From Candidatus Zixiibacteriota bacterium (GTDB taxonomy: Bacteria; Zixibacteria; MSB-5A5; WJJR01; JAJRUJ01), in assembly GCA_024277855.1 (NCBI GenBank), contig JAJRUJ010000051.1:1-44790 (forward strand): DNA of 44,790 nt. The letters are read 5' to 3'. The position numbers were made by a program, and so were the translations under genes. The notes beneath the pieces are model-generated. The model did no database searches. It worked only from the letters and a program-made list of their open reading frames with translations, and was not told the DNA's origin. Of the stretch, positions 23,960-44,781 are shown in pieces. Positions within the stretch are counted from its first letter, which is position 1. Every line of letters starts with the position of its first letter.

Positions 23960-24325
23960 CTATCGTCGCGCGACCTCTCGGCCGGCAACCGGCTTGCCGG
24001 CCAGGTATTGACCCATCTTACTGCGCCAGACCTCGGCGGGATTATCTCGACCTGCACTCTGCGGTGCGCCCTCATTAAAGGAGACAAAGCGCGCCTGTTG
24101 CTGTCGCGCAACCGACGGCGTCGGTATTTCGCGACGCGGGAGAGCCACCGCCGGCTTCCCCACCGATCGGGGAACGGCGACCGGCCGGGCCAGATGGTCG
24201 GTAACTATTTTCACGGCCCAGAGGGCCACCGCGACGACCGAAAGGCGCGCGGCGACGGTCAGGCCTACTCCCTGCCAGAAATCCCACTGGGTCAGGTATT
24301 TCGTCATTTCGCTCCATGATTCCAT
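23960..24325 (-). CDS. hypothetical single-span membrane protein
   Basis: A 121-residue product with one membrane helix near residues 18-42 (WQGVGLTVAARLSVVAVALW, then AVKIVT). The rest is a Pro/Arg-rich linker with no signal peptide cleavage site. I do not recognise a family. It sits between two other accessory genes, 12 bp from DUF2225 and 18 bp from the next gene, so it is in the same operon. AGGGA lies about 9 bases before the ATG. It could anchor one of its neighbours to the inner membrane. Confidence 0.55.
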   Translation of the reverse strand: MESWSEMTKYLTQWDFWQGVGLTVAARLSVVAVALWAVKIVTDHLARPVAVPRSVGKPAVALPRREIPTPSVARQQQARFVSFNEGAPQSAGRDNPAEVWRSKMGQYLAGKPVAGREVARR

Positions 24326-24343: not shown

Positions 24344-24697
24344 TCAGACCCGTAGGTCCAGATGCTTCTTGATTATCGGTTTTGTTTTTTCTTTCGCTGC
24401 CTCGACCGGCGTGTCGTCCGGGTTTTCCTTATTTGAATTTTTATTTTCGATTTCTTCTTTTCGTTTTTCTTCTTTTCCTTGTCGTTTATTTTCGCGGTCT
24501 TGTTTTTCGCGATGGATAATCACTTCGTCGGTGCGGTTGGTGGCCGGCGGCCGACGTTTGTGCTCAACATTCTTGCGTTCGGCATCGATGGCGGTCTCGC
24601 GTTGCGCGATTTCCGGCTGGGATTTTTCCACCTGCGTAATCTTCTCCGCAGCAGGAGTCTTGCTCAGATTATCCACTATGGCGATTGGCCGTACCAT
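24344..24697 (-). CDS. hypothetical small flagellar-operon protein
   Basis: A 117-residue hydrophilic protein. The N-terminal 35 residues (VRPIAIVDNLSKTPAAEKIT and QVEKSQPEIAQRE) look like a conserved peptide I associate with small proteins next to fliA in other flagellar clusters; this is recall, not a search. The rest is a highly charged Lys/Glu-rich tail (RENKRQGKEEKRKEEIENKN) with lower GC content than its surroundings and likely disordered. There is no signal or membrane segment. It lies 18 bp after fliA. Function unknown. Confidence 0.6.
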   Translation of the reverse strand: MVRPIAIVDNLSKTPAAEKITQVEKSQPEIAQRETAIDAERKNVEHKRRPPATNRTDEVIIHREKQDRENKRQGKEEKRKEEIENKNSNKENPDDTPVEAAKEKTKPIIKKHLDLRV

Positions 24698-24715: not shown

Positions 24716-25576
24716 TTAATTGCCAAAACGCTCCCCGACCAGTTGCCGGAGTTTGGCGACTGCCTTGGTATGGATCTGCGAGACTCGCGACTCCGAGATG
24801 TGCATCACCTCGCCGATCTCCTTGAGGGTCAGTTCCTCATAATAGTACAAGGCGATGACCAATTTTTCCTGTTCGGTAAGATGGGCCATCGAATCGACCA
24901 GGTAGGCGCGCAGTTCCTGGCGTTCGATATTGCCGAGAATATTGCCGTGCGCCTTCGATTCGATTGTCTCCACTCGCGGCACCTGGCGGTTGTCTTCCTC
25001 GCGGTAGACCAGCTCGTCAAGTGAGAGCAATGTCGTGCCGGTAACATCCTTGAGCGCCGCGGCGAGTTCATCGGCCGAATAATCCATCTCCCCGGCCAGC
25101 TCGGTGCGAGTCGGGCGGCGGCCGAGAGTATTCTCCAATTTAACCGTTGCCCGATCGAGTTGCCGGGCCTTGGCGCGGGTCGAACGCGGGACCCAATCAA
25201 GCGACCGCAGGTCGTCGAGAATCGCACCCCGGATACGCGGAACGGCGTATGTCTCGAATTTTACCCCGCGATCAGGATCGAATTTCTTTAGTGCCTCAAT
25301 CAGGCCGATCGACCCCGTGGAGATCAGGTCGGAGAGTTCCACCGACTTGGGGAAGCCCATCGCCATCCGTCCGGCGACATTGCGCACCAGCGGCATGTAG
25401 CGTGTGAGCAACGATTCCCGGACTTCCGGATCCCCGGTGATCTTGTAATGGGTCCATTCCCGTTCGAGCACGATATTGCGTTTTCCCCGCCGGGTCACGG
25501 TCATGGTCGTTTTCCGGCCGGTCGCCTGCTTGCTTGTTGCTCTTCCCGAAGGTCGTTTTGTTGTGTGTGCCGCCAC
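24716..25576 (-). CDS. fliA: RNA polymerase sigma factor FliA (sigma-28)
   Basis: Directs transcription of late flagellar genes such as flagellin. Region 2 includes YMPLVRNVAGRMAMGFPKSV, DLISTGSIGLIEALKKFDPD and GVKFETYAVPRIRGAILDDL; region 3 follows (WVPRSTRAKARQLDRA); region 4 is LTEQEKLVIALYYYEELTLK with EIGEVMHISESRVSQIHTKA, all FliA/WhiG features. The start is GTG 25576 with CGGAG six bases upstream; a second start at residue 25 is possible, since the first 30 residues are basic and not conserved. It is 73 bp after flhF. No anti-sigma factor flgM is seen in the window. Confidence 0.96.
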   Translation of the reverse strand: MAAHTTKRPSGRATSKQATGRKTTMTVTRRGKRNIVLEREWTHYKITGDPEVRESLLTRYMPLVRNVAGRMAMGFPKSVELSDLISTGSIGLIEALKKFDPDRGVKFETYAVPRIRGAILDDLRSLDWVPRSTRAKARQLDRATVKLENTLGRRPTRTELAGEMDYSADELAAALKDVTGTTLLSLDELVYREEDNRQVPRVETIESKAHGNILGNIERQELRAYLVDSMAHLTEQEKLVIALYYYEELTLKEIGEVMHISESRVSQIHTKAVAKLRQLVGERFGN

Positions 25577-25649
25577 GTTATGCTCCGTTTTTTTCTATCG
25601 TTACCGGCTTTACAGCCCTTTTTTCTCGATGTCCTGCTAATTCAGATGG

Positions 25650-26867
25650 TCAGGGTTTTGCGTTTTCTTCGTCGCGATCGGCCTGTTTACCGACACAACC
25701 GGACATACCGATTTCGGCCGCGATCCGGCCGCGCAGAAGGTTATTAGTGAACGGTTCGATCTCGTCGCACGGCGCGACACCGGTCGTGTAGTAGGCCAGC
25801 GGGAGGCCCGAGATCGCCGAAAGATGGCGGGCATCGTCGAAAGCCGCGACCTCATCAAAGCCGGTGAAAGCCAGGTGGGTCGGGTTGAAACCCGCATACC
25901 GCTTGATGAATCGCTCGTTGACCTCGCGCCGAACCAACGAGGATAAGACCAGGACAACAATCCGCGCGCGGATCGTCTTATTCAGCTTTTTCAACTGCCG
26001 GGTGTCGCCGCCTGTCGGCAAATCACAGCGTATGAAGGCCGATTCGGCGTCGACTTCACTCAGATATTTGTGAATCTCACCGGTATCGGTAACGGTCAGT
26101 TTCTTGTGTGTCAGATTGAACAGCTCAGCCCAGGAGCTCAACGGTCCGCCGTTGGCTGCATCCGGACCGATGATTTCCAGAACCGGCAAAGAAGATTTGC
26201 GCGTACGCCACCAGACCGCCAGCGCTTTCATCAATAGCGTTGACTTGCCGCTCCCGGCCGGTCCGACAAAATTGACTACCGCCGGCAGACGGTCGCGGGA
26301 GAGAAACGGTTCAGGGTCGGGCATCGCATCGAGCAGGTACCCGCTATAGGCCTCGGCCAGTTCGGCTTTCAACGTCGCATTGCGGTTCAACCACGGCCGC
26401 ACTTCCGGCGCGTCGATCCAGCGGGCAAATTGAGATGCCGAAACCATGCTGTTAATCATTCCGGATATACCGACCAGAGATTGTTCGACCATTTCAAGAC
26501 GGGCAACCAACTCGTCGTCGTTATGGGCCGTTGGGGTTCCGCCTGGTTTATTGGACGGCCCGACCGCCGTTTCAGGTTCTGCCGCGTCTGGACAGTCTGC
26601 CGTTTCGGGAATCTGAAATCTTTCACCGGGGCCACCTTTGAGATGCAGGGTTTTCGGACCCTCGGTCGATTCCTCGGCATAACTTCCCGGAACCCGGGGC
26701 TGTCCGGAAGCGGCGGTTACGGTGACTTCCGATCCCGGCCCGCCGGAACGGTCGGTCAGACCGCGTTCAACCCGAGTGTCGAGGATAACTGCGGTCGGCC
26801 CCATTTCGTCTTTGATCCTGGCCAGCGCTTCGCGCACCGACGAGGCCGTGTAATTTTTAATCCACAT
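25650..26867 (-). CDS. flhF: FlhF, SRP-type GTPase with degenerate G motifs
   Basis: FlhF sets the place and number of flagella. The N-terminus MWIKNYTASSVREALARIKD and GPTAVILDTR is the FlhF B domain signature. The P-loop is kept (GPAGSGKST, 202-210). Other GTPase motifs are altered: the DTAGR G3 reads DLPTGG (282-287) and the TKLD G4 reads TGFD (335-338), while the position of the DTYR motif reads GPDAANG. GTP binding and hydrolysis are thus likely changed. It has about 405 residues. I place the start at ATG 26867, seven bases after GGAG, overlapping the flhA stop by 11 bases; the upstream TTG of the longer frame is less likely. The next gene is fliA rather than flhG. Confidence 0.85.
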   Translation of the reverse strand: MWIKNYTASSVREALARIKDEMGPTAVILDTRVERGLTDRSGGPGSEVTVTAASGQPRVPGSYAEESTEGPKTLHLKGGPGERFQIPETADCPDAAEPETAVGPSNKPGGTPTAHNDDELVARLEMVEQSLVGISGMINSMVSASQFARWIDAPEVRPWLNRNATLKAELAEAYSGYLLDAMPDPEPFLSRDRLPAVVNFVGPAGSGKSTLLMKALAVWWRTRKSSLPVLEIIGPDAANGGPLSSWAELFNLTHKKLTVTDTGEIHKYLSEVDAESAFIRCDLPTGGDTRQLKKLNKTIRARIVVLVLSSLVRREVNERFIKRYAGFNPTHLAFTGFDEVAAFDDARHLSAISGLPLAYYTTGVAPCDEIEPFTNNLLRGRIAAEIGMSGCVGKQADRDEENAKP

Positions 26868-28911
26868 TAGCAAACTCCAGCGCGCCTGCCGAGACTATCG
26901 GACAGTTGGCCATGAGATCGTTATATGAGAGCACAACCAGCGACGGGTGGCGCGATTCAAACATCCGCCGCACCAACAACCGCAGGTTCGGAGCCACCAG
27001 TAAAATCGGCTGGCGTCCCTGCATGCGCATTTTTTCGATAAAATTCCCGGCCAACCCGGTCAGGTGTTCCTGTTGATCGGGCGGGAGGGTCAGTTGCAGG
27101 CCGGCCGGGGTCTGTTGGATCGCTTCGGCCAAACCGCGTTCGAGTTCGGGACTGAGCGTGAAGACATGGACCTCGCCCTTTTGATCCCGGTACAACTCGG
27201 TGATATTTCGTTTGAGCGCTCGCCGCGCGTACTCCGAGAGAATGTCCGAGTCCTTAGTCAGCGACCAGTAATCGGAAATTGTCTCGAGGATCGTCGGCAG
27301 GTCTTTAATCGGTATGCGCTCTTTCAAGAGATTTTGCAATACGCGCTGAATCGGTCCGGCTGAGGAAGTCTTGCCCATGACTTCTTCGATAATCGCGCCG
27401 GCGTCCTGCTTGTGGTGATCGAGCAATGTTTGGACATCCTGCCGCTGGAGGATTTCGGCGGCATTGGCACGGATGACCTCGGTTAAGTGCGTCGCCAGTA
27501 CGGCGGCCGGCTCGACTACGGTGTAACCGCGCAATTCGGCCAACTCCCGTTGCGTCGGGGTGATCCAGTAAGCCGGCAGGCCGAATGACGGTTCGGTGGT
27601 TTTGATCCCGTCGAGTTCTTCGGTAGCCGCCCCGGGGTTGATCGCCAGCACATTACTCATCATCAACTCACCGGTCGCCACTTTGACGCCCTTGAGCTTT
27701 ATCTCGTACGATGACGGCGCCAACTGGACATTGTCCCGGATGCGAATCGGCGGCACCAACATGCCCATCTCGCCGGCCAACTGGCGGCGAATCATCGCCA
27801 CGCGATCGAGCAGATCGCCGCCCGAAGTAGTATCGACAATCGGAATCAGACCATAACCGATTTCGATTTCGAGCACGTCAAGGCGCAAATATGCTTCCGG
27901 CGGATCGGCCTGGTTCGCGTCGTCGGATTTGATTTCCCGGACCGCGCCGGCATCTTCTTCCATTTTTTTGCGGCGGGAGATTGTTGTCGCCGCCACTGCT
28001 CCACCAGCGAGACCCAGGAAAAGGAACGGCAACGTGGGCATACCCGGCACAAAACCGAATACCGTCAGCATCACTGCGGCCACGGCAATGGCGCGCGGTT
28101 GAGCGGTAAGCTGACGGGTGATATCGGTGCCGATATTGGATTCGGAACCTGCGCGGGTGACAATGATACCGGAGGCGACCGAAACAACCAGCGCCGGGAT
28201 TTGCGAAACCAACCCGTCACCAACGGTCAGGAGGGTGTAGGTCTGGGCCGCTTCGGAGAGCGACATATTCAACTGGAGCACCCCGATAATCAGGCCGCCA
28301 ACCACATTGATAATGGCAATCAGGATCCCGGCAATCGCATCGCCCCGAACAAACTTGGAGGCGCCATCCATCGCGCCGTAAAAATCGGCTTCCCGCGAAA
28401 TCAACGCCCGACGTTCCTTGGCTTCATCATCCGAAATCAAACCGGCGTTCAGGTCCGCGTCGATGGCCATTTGCTTACCGGGCATCGCATCCAAAGTGAA
28501 GCGGGCGGCAACCTCGGAAATCCGGCCCGAACCCTTGGTGATCACGACAAACTGGATGATCACCAAAATCAGGAAAATGATAAACCCGACGACATAGTTG
28601 CCCTTGACGACGAAGCTGCCGAATGACATGATCACTTCCCCGGCATAGGCCTCGCCGAGAATCAGCCGGGTCGAGGCGACATTGAGCGCCAGGCGGAACA
28701 AGGTCAAAACAAGAAGCATCCCCGGGAACACCGACATCTGCAGCGGCGCGGTGACATACATCGTCGACAGCAACACCACCACCGACAGGGTGATATTAAA
28801 TGCCAGCAGGAAATCCAGCAGGCCCGCCGGGAGCGGGAGGATCAATATGGCGATGATCCCGATGACGGCCACGGCAAAATACAGGTCTGAATTTTTACCA
28901 AAATTTTTCAT
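26857..28911 (-). CDS. flhA: flagellar export gate protein FlhA
   Basis: Largest component of the type III export gate, in the inner membrane. The N-terminal half has eight membrane helices; FRLALNVASTRLILGEAYAG and GFIIFLILVIIQFVVITKGS with RISEVAARFTLDAMPGKQMA and DADLNAGLI are the FHIPEP signature region. The C-terminal cytoplasmic domain (about 360-684) binds chaperone-substrate complexes and has LTEVIRANAAEILQRQDVQT. About 684 residues is normal. I use ATG 28911 (MKNFGKNSDLYF); the frame runs to TTG 28917. It is 25 bp after flhB. Confidence 0.97.
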   Translation of the reverse strand: MKNFGKNSDLYFAVAVIGIIAILILPLPAGLLDFLLAFNITLSVVVLLSTMYVTAPLQMSVFPGMLLVLTLFRLALNVASTRLILGEAYAGEVIMSFGSFVVKGNYVVGFIIFLILVIIQFVVITKGSGRISEVAARFTLDAMPGKQMAIDADLNAGLISDDEAKERRALISREADFYGAMDGASKFVRGDAIAGILIAIINVVGGLIIGVLQLNMSLSEAAQTYTLLTVGDGLVSQIPALVVSVASGIIVTRAGSESNIGTDITRQLTAQPRAIAVAAVMLTVFGFVPGMPTLPFLFLGLAGGAVAATTISRRKKMEEDAGAVREIKSDDANQADPPEAYLRLDVLEIEIGYGLIPIVDTTSGGDLLDRVAMIRRQLAGEMGMLVPPIRIRDNVQLAPSSYEIKLKGVKVATGELMMSNVLAINPGAATEELDGIKTTEPSFGLPAYWITPTQRELAELRGYTVVEPAAVLATHLTEVIRANAAEILQRQDVQTLLDHHKQDAGAIIEEVMGKTSSAGPIQRVLQNLLKERIPIKDLPTILETISDYWSLTKDSDILSEYARRALKRNITELYRDQKGEVHVFTLSPELERGLAEAIQQTPAGLQLTLPPDQQEHLTGLAGNFIEKMRMQGRQPILLVAPNLRLLVRRMFESRHPSLVVLSYNDLMANCPIVSAGALEFANVD

Positions 28912-28936
28912 CGTCAACTAATGGCCGGTGTCCCGG

Positions 28937-43098: not shown

Positions 43099-43787
43099 TA
43101 TTGATTCTCCAGCGGGGCGGGCGGGAGTTCTTTGGCGGCATCGCGCCAGATCTGCTTGAGGACAGACAGCCGTTTTTCGACCCGGGCATCGACCATCCCC
43201 CACTCGGTTTCCACAATACATCCGCCGGTTTTAATCGCCGGATCTTCACGAATTGTATAGGAGGTAATATCTTCGAATTCGTCGGCATGTTCAGTCAGGA
43301 GGTTACGCATGAAAGCGGCGTCCGACGGCGCACAGACGATTGTCAGGTGGTCCTTACTCAACAGTTGGGCAAACGCATCGCGCAAAGCCGGGCCGATCGC
43401 TTCGGTCGACGCCGGGCGGGCGGCAATGATCGTATCGAGCACGCGGAGGATAAGTTCGACGGCCTGTGATTCCACCTGATGGAGCGCCTCGCGGCGGGCT
43501 CCCGCCAACTGCTGTAACATCCCCGCCCAACGCTTGTATTCCTCGTCAAAGCGGGCCTGGGCGCGTAATTCTCCTTCGTGGCGGCCTTCGTTGCGGGCCT
43601 GCTCCGTTTCGGCCTGCAGACGGGCCTCCAACGCGGCAATTCGCGCCTGCGCCTGCTCTTCCTGCAGTCGCAGGCGGCCCTCGAGTGAATATTTGTCGCC
43701 CGCCCGTCCCCCGCCGGGAACGCCTATTTTGTATGCCTGTTCTGAGAGTTGAACCCGCGGCAGAACGGCCTTAGACGATGATATCAT
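43098..43787 (-). CDS. fliH: flagellar assembly protein FliH
   Basis: Regulates FliI and tethers it to FliN. A variable N-terminus leads into a coiled coil (LEGRLRLQEEQAQARIAALE, then ARLQAETEQA) and the conserved C-terminal domain (VELILRVLDTIIAARPASTE, LTIVCAPSDAAFMRNLLT, TGGCIVETEWGMVDARVEKR). 229 residues is normal. GGAGG lies five bases before the ATG, which is inside the fliG 3' end (17-base overlap). The stop overlaps the fliI start by one base. Confidence 0.94.
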   Translation of the reverse strand: MISSSKAVLPRVQLSEQAYKIGVPGGGRAGDKYSLEGRLRLQEEQAQARIAALEARLQAETEQARNEGRHEGELRAQARFDEEYKRWAGMLQQLAGARREALHQVESQAVELILRVLDTIIAARPASTEAIGPALRDAFAQLLSKDHLTIVCAPSDAAFMRNLLTEHADEFEDITSYTIREDPAIKTGGCIVETEWGMVDARVEKRLSVLKQIWRDAAKELPPAPLENQ

Positions 43788-44781
43788 CCTTGCCTCCGCG
43801 CCCGCTGATCACAATCTGGCCCTCTTCCTCCAGACGCCTGATGGCCTCAACAATTTTCTGTTGTGCCGATTCGACGTCAGAGAGGCGCATCGGCCCCAGG
43901 AATTCCATCTCTTCTTTAATCATCGTGGCCACCCGTTCGGAAACATTGGAAAATATCTTTGTCTTTATTTCGTCGGAGGCGGCTTTGAGGGCAATGGCCA
44001 GGTCTTTGGTTTCGACTTCTTTTAACAGTCTCTGGACCGAACGATCATCGAGTAAAATTAAATCTTCGAAGACAAACATCATATTCTTGATTTCTGCGGC
44101 CAGGTCCGCGTCCTCGCCTTCCATCGTTTGCATGATGTGTTTTTCCGCGGAGGTTTCGATTAAATTGAGAATATCAGCCACGACTTTGGTGCCGCCGGAA
44201 AGCGACAGGTCGCGCGAGCTGGCGCCCTCGAACTGGTTTTCGAGTTCTTTTTCCATCTGATGCAGGATATCCGGCGAGATTTTTTCCATCGTGGCGATAC
44301 GCAGGGTAACTTCCGCCTGTAATTCCGCCGGCAATTCGCTCAACACCGCCGAGGCGCTATGCGGCGGAATCTGGGTTAACAGGACAGCAATTGTCTGAGG
44401 GTGCTCGTTCTGGACAAACCCGACCAGCTGTTTGGGGTCGATATTACGCAGGAGACTGAAACCGGTTTGGCGCAGCGAGCCCTCCAACCGTTTGAGAATC
44501 TCGCCGGCCTTGCTCGAGCCAAGCGCCGATTCGAGCACATTACGCGCATAGTCGACACCGCCCTGGGCGACATACTCGCGCGCCATAAAAATCGTATGGC
44601 ACTCCTTGATCACCGCTTCCTCGAGATCGGGCGGCACCTCGCGCAGGTTGGCGATCTCCACGGTCAGCTTCTCGATCTCCAGCTCATTGAGGTTTTTGAA
44701 CACCTCGGAGGAGACTTCCGGACCGAGCACCACCAGGGCGACTGCGGCTTTCTGAATCGGTGTAATATTTTCTAAATCCAC
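43771..44781 (-). CDS. fliG: flagellar motor switch protein FliG
   Basis: Rotor protein that contacts the stator and MS-ring. It has 336 residues. The N-terminus has QKAAVALVVLGPEVSSEVFK, the middle domain the EHPQ motif (126-129, QNEHPQTIAVLLTQIP), and the C-terminal domain the charged torque helix (LLLDDRSVQRLLKEVETKDL, ALKAASDEIKTKIFSNVSER). The start is GTG 44781, in frame with MDLENITPIQK; the gene upstream (probably fliF) lies beyond the window edge. It overlaps fliH by 17 bases. Confidence 0.97.
   Translation of the reverse strand: MDLENITPIQKAAVALVVLGPEVSSEVFKNLNELEIEKLTVEIANLREVPPDLEEAVIKECHTIFMAREYVAQGGVDYARNVLESALGSSKAGEILKRLEGSLRQTGFSLLRNIDPKQLVGFVQNEHPQTIAVLLTQIPPHSASAVLSELPAELQAEVTLRIATMEKISPDILHQMEKELENQFEGASSRDLSLSGGTKVVADILNLIETSAEKHIMQTMEGEDADLAAEIKNMMFVFEDLILLDDRSVQRLLKEVETKDLAIALKAASDEIKTKIFSNVSERVATMIKEEMEFLGPMRLSDVESAQQKIVEAIRRLEEEGQIVISGRGGKDDIIV

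Follow-up and report, generated by a model that had tools for sequence, protein, structure and literature searches.

The FlhF encoded in the window (the whole stretch of DNA analysed, 44,790 nt from a genome whose closest named relatives are Candidatus Zixiibacteriota MAGs) is, as judged from sequence and a predicted fold, a true FlhF orthologue by domain and place, and is by its motifs not a canonical SRP-type GTPase. The preferred reading, with a probability of roughly 0.6, is that this FlhF has turned into a pseudo-GTPase, or into a GTPase that only binds its nucleotide, and would tether FliG constitutively while hydrolysing GTP hardly or not at all. As the N-terminal FliG-interaction domain (FID) is kept and both the hydrolysis motifs and FlhG are gone, a tether is the simplest reading.

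flhF (25650..26867, minus strand, like all window features below) has an ATG start and encodes 405 aa. It is the sole FlhF gene of the genome; a scan of the whole genome found no second FlhF, the other SRP-GTPase matches being Ffh and FtsY. The start of flhF overlaps the stop of its upstream neighbour flhA (26857..28917) by 11 bp (ATGTGGATTAA), and flhF is thus probably translationally coupled to flhA. The downstream neighbour is fliA (sigma-28; 24716..25576), which puts the gene between flhA and flhG/fliA as expected of flhF, though flhG is missing. Pfam matches in the surrounding flagellar cluster include FliG, FliM, FliN, FlhA, hook protein, FlgK, FlgI and flagellin, and this gene content suggests a cluster sufficiently complete to build a functional flagellum. 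The fliG product (43771..44781) has all three domains and is the presumed binding partner of the FID.

The protein matches the FlhF profile TIGR03499 over residues 1-216 (E 2.8e-11) with 43.9 bits, below the NCBIfam equivalog cut-off of 174.15 bits, which a single one of the 132 class genomes passes. An N-terminal B domain with a FID (residues 1-54, 26706..26867; the domain as defined in PMC11236974) is indicated by this match, which starts at position 1, and by a strand-helix-strand-strand arrangement at residues 2-54 of the AF2 model. In residues 1-30, and again in about 156-388, which covers the NG domain, the pLDDT of the model is mostly >90. Foldseek with this model returned FlhF 8R9R (TMt 0.69) and 2PX0 (TMt 0.65), plus Ffh and FtsY, at probability 1.00, and model and search together place the protein in the SRP-type NG fold. 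With a profile built from 50 class sequences, the top two PDB sequence matches are both of the solved FlhF.

Motif positions were taken from an alignment with FlhF of B. subtilis (2PX0) and S. putrefaciens (8R9R). The G1 P-loop GPAGSGKST (residues 202-210, G202-T210; 26238..26264) is intact and agrees with GxxGxGK[ST]. The insertion-box position (residues 233-236; 26160..26171) reads IGPD instead of DTYR, the D-x-[YF]-R of SRP GTPases, which builds the composite active site of the FlhF dimer. The G3 position (DxxG; residues 282-285; 26013..26024) reads DLPT, with the Asp (D282) kept and the Gly lost; the alignment requires a two-residue gap here, and D282 is placed as the G3 Asp by the solved structures and by its position at the end of a beta strand in the AF2 model. 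The G4 position (TKxD; residues 335-338; 25854..25865) reads TGFD, with the Lys lost and the Asp (D338) kept. The first-pass annotation of this DNA had described a retained B domain and P-loop together with changes of DTAGR to DLPTGG, of TKLD to TGFD and of the DTYR motif, all of which the profile match and the structure-based alignment bear out. With the P-loop Lys and Ser (K208/S209) and the Asp residues of G3 and G4 kept, the protein may have kept GTP binding and even a slow hydrolysis.

Among 93 FlhF loci in the class, fliA is visible in 91, and flhG lies between flhF and fliA in 85 of these. The exceptions are the window's genome (G000), its sister G001, G005 and three g26 genomes, and correspond to three changes on a quick FlhA+FliA tree. 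The class gene downstream of flhF has FlhG/FleN (4RZ2, 5J1J) as the best structure matches of its profile, and is thus FlhG. In the window, no flhG is found between the flhF stop and the fliA GTG, where a gap of 73 bp (25577..25649) leaves no room for it. The FlhG profile A2, run over the assembly, has ParA as its best match (6e-19), the controls being found at 1e-76 to 1e-82. Each match followed up as FlhG was rejected: C63 is ParA beside ParB, C105 an ArsA-like ATPase, C107 Mrp, C54 MinD with a ferredoxin insert, and C30 a Wzz/BY-kinase tail. The assembly is a draft of 129 contigs, rated 100% complete, and the absence is also backed by the direct adjacency of flhF and fliA. An assembly or frameshift artefact is rejected because G001 has the identical gene order and also lacks flhG. 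The absence of flhG before fliA, already claimed from the window alone, thus holds in both genomes, and over the whole genome only ParA/MinD-type proteins, and no second FlhF, come up.

The order of the window's genome, one of the uncultured Zixibacteria, contains f1, represented by two genomes (G000 and G001), and f2; the class as a whole consists mostly of draft MAGs. FlhF is encoded beside flhA in 6/6 flhA-bearing genomes of the order and is absent from 3/3 without flhA. The flhF of G006 (L022:5020-6951) has an apparent frameshift and reads into FlhG, which may be a mutation or an assembly error; it was excluded from the motif counts. The insertion-box motif DxYR is lost in all five readable FlhF of the order, and such loss is confined to the order. 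G4 has kept its Asp and lost its Lys in 5/5; the Asp position of G3 is occupied by D in the window's FlhF and by E in its four counterparts. The P-loop Lys position reads K, V, K, R and R, the change being to V (codon GTA) in G001 and to R in G005 and G008; these substitutions argue that selection is not keeping tight nucleotide binding across the order. FlhG is absent from both f1 genomes and from G005, and is present in G006, G007 and G008 (two f2 genera), with Gln in place of the Walker A Lys.

In most of the class (f7-f12), the GTP site is altered yet recognisable (SLDxxK, IDTPxx, TMTDLT), and f17 and f18 FlhF are near-canonical. The joint loss of partner and GTPase motifs, on which the first-pass annotation had built, is found in f1, the motif loss being order-wide, but does not hold as a rule, as strict co-loss is ruled out by g26, f18 and f19. 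The g26 genomes (L076, L079, L082) have lost flhG independently, with the FlhF P-loop, the G3 Asp and the DUF2802-like tail of a neighbouring protein (see below) all kept. In f18 (L066, L067), a near-canonical FlhF is paired with an FlhG that has lost its Walker A signature (SGSPLYGKS, SGAGGSGRT). The FlhF of f19 (L094, L104, L106, L145) has undergone a degradation of its own (R for K in the P-loop, DLP, loss of G4), and FlhG has a canonical Walker A in 3/4 of these. FlhG loss and FlhF motif loss are, at the level of sequence, separable. The stimulation of FlhF GTPase activity by FlhG, assumed by the same annotation, does not carry over to the class: the DQAxxLR enhancer helix, with which FlhG stimulates FlhF in other phyla (PMC12826062), was sought in about 85 class FlhG sequences and is carried by none. 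Loss of the stimulation link between FlhG and FlhF thus probably predates the loss of flhG.

In gamma-proteobacteria, FlhF is bound by the pole determinant FipA, a DUF2802 protein with a single TM helix (PMC11620751), whose gene has the same position as that of a small single-TM protein in the window. This 121-aa protein (23960..24325), two genes after fliA, resembles FipA in its N-terminal TM helix and in its gene lying directly downstream of the flhF-fliA operon; however, DUF2802 with its conserved G and E/L motif is missing from its C-terminus, and it has no Pfam match, the window's order retaining only the TM part and a linker. The f17 homologue matches DUF2802 at 2.4e-5, below the Pfam cut-off, and outside f17 the homology of the class protein with FipA is suggested. 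The families f3, f7-f10, f17 and f18 share a C-terminal motif G-x(n)-[ED]-x-x-L, and in these a tail profile made with the family in question left out gives 10-57 bits among the best scores listed. The same profile gives at most 2 bits in f1/f2, 4 bits in f19 and less than 0 for the single f12 sequence. The DUF2802-like tail is absent in both lineages with the most degraded FlhF, namely the window's order and f19.

For FlhF of S. putrefaciens, the FID is known to hold FliG and the NG domain to bind HubP nucleotide-independently; FliG is proposed to become available to FliM/FliN when FlhG stimulates GTP hydrolysis (PMC11236974). On the tether reading, the FID of the window's FlhF would still capture FliG, and via FliG also FliF, at the membrane, and the protein would not cycle through GTP hydrolysis. 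Regulated release of FliG to FliM/FliN would be lacking without FlhG, as would any restraint of flagellar number by FlhG. Most simply, the tether would release FliG/FliF by mass action or through competition by FliM, and flagellar site and number would be set otherwise, as the first-pass annotation had also suggested, for example by expression level or a landmark. The likely sequence of events would start from an FlhG whose stimulating helix was already missing class-wide, and continue with loss of the FlhF insertion-box motif in the common ancestor of f1 and f2, degradation of the FlhG Walker A in f2, and deletion of flhG in f1 and, separately, in G005.

Against a tether stands the requirement of other known FlhF for at least GTP binding in localisation (PMC12713375, citing Schniederberend 2013). 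FlhF might still be a GTP-dependent dimer that binds GTP and hydrolyses little of it, with spontaneous turnover replacing FlhG. The retention of K208/S209, D282 and D338 would allow this, and in P. aeruginosa and V. alginolyticus binding without hydrolysis is enough for polar placement (PMC12713375). However, the P-loop Lys is V in G001 and R in G005 and G008, and the insertion-box motif of the composite site is gone order-wide, which leaves this explanation rather unlikely. It is improbable that another MinD/ParA-type ATPase controls flagellar number instead of FlhG: although the genome has ParA, Mrp, ArsA-like and ferredoxin-bearing MinD proteins, and MinD represses fliA in E. coli (PMC12826062), none of these ATPases is encoded in the flagellar cluster, ParA lies beside parB as usual, and no dedicated MinD was found in the genome.

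Neutral decay, with FlhF heading for loss after flhG, would account for the eroding catalytic motifs and for the lost flhG and DUF2802-like tail, but the pattern of constraint speaks strongly against it. Between G000 and G001, the FID is conserved like FlhA (74% and 72% identity, respectively) and the NG domain is 51% identical, whereas FlhG-bearing families at a comparable FlhA identity (70-75%) have means of 63% for the FID and 39% for the NG domain. On these values, FlhF of f1 is not in decay. When f1 is compared with f2, FID (33-41%) and NG (23-29%) identities are both under the class mean, which points to a faster phase in between. As the frame is also open in 5/6 genomes of the order, and FlhF is retained beside flhA in every flagellated one, decay is very improbable.

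The window's FlhF shares with FlhF of S. putrefaciens and B. subtilis (8R9R, 2PX0) the B-NG architecture, the N-terminal FID, the NG fold and the gene order flhA-flhF-[flhG]-fliA, but differs in lacking DTYR, the DxxG Gly, the TKxD Lys and FlhG, and in its profile score (44 bits vs 174). Another close parallel is offered by P. aeruginosa and V. alginolyticus mutants whose FlhF is deficient in hydrolysis (cited in PMC12713375), as in both cases hydrolysis is expected to be missing and placement may persist. However, these mutants are laboratory-made and still have FlhG and an otherwise unchanged active site, whereas the state of the window's FlhF is natural and, being order-wide, old. In a 2025 review, FlhF flagellar placement and the purpose of its GTP cycle are described as incompletely understood, and flhF and flhG as consistently encoded together (PMC12826062); a literature search found no paper on a pseudo-GTPase FlhF and none focused on Zixibacteria flagellation. 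The lineage has kept the presumed FliG-binding part and the fold, and has dropped FlhG, the FipA-type tail and the motifs for hydrolysis; sister families preserve intermediates. The order is therefore a natural test of whether the FlhF switch needs switching, and provides natural variants with which the parts of the switch needed for placement could be told from those needed for number. A wider proposal, put forward tentatively and at somewhat under even odds, is that a natural pseudo-GTPase FlhF without FlhG or a FipA-type recruiter places flagella by nucleotide-independent FliG capture; the SRP-type GTP cycle would then be dispensable in a wild lineage, and would have been dismantled stepwise.

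Directly after fliA, a further gene (24344-24697, minus strand) encodes a charged protein of ~110 aa (MVRPIxLQDNLSKTQAAERxNQIQK...). The window's copy has no match in a Pfam and NCBIfam search. The protein is present in 81 surveyed stretches, and is possibly an undescribed flagellar-operon family.
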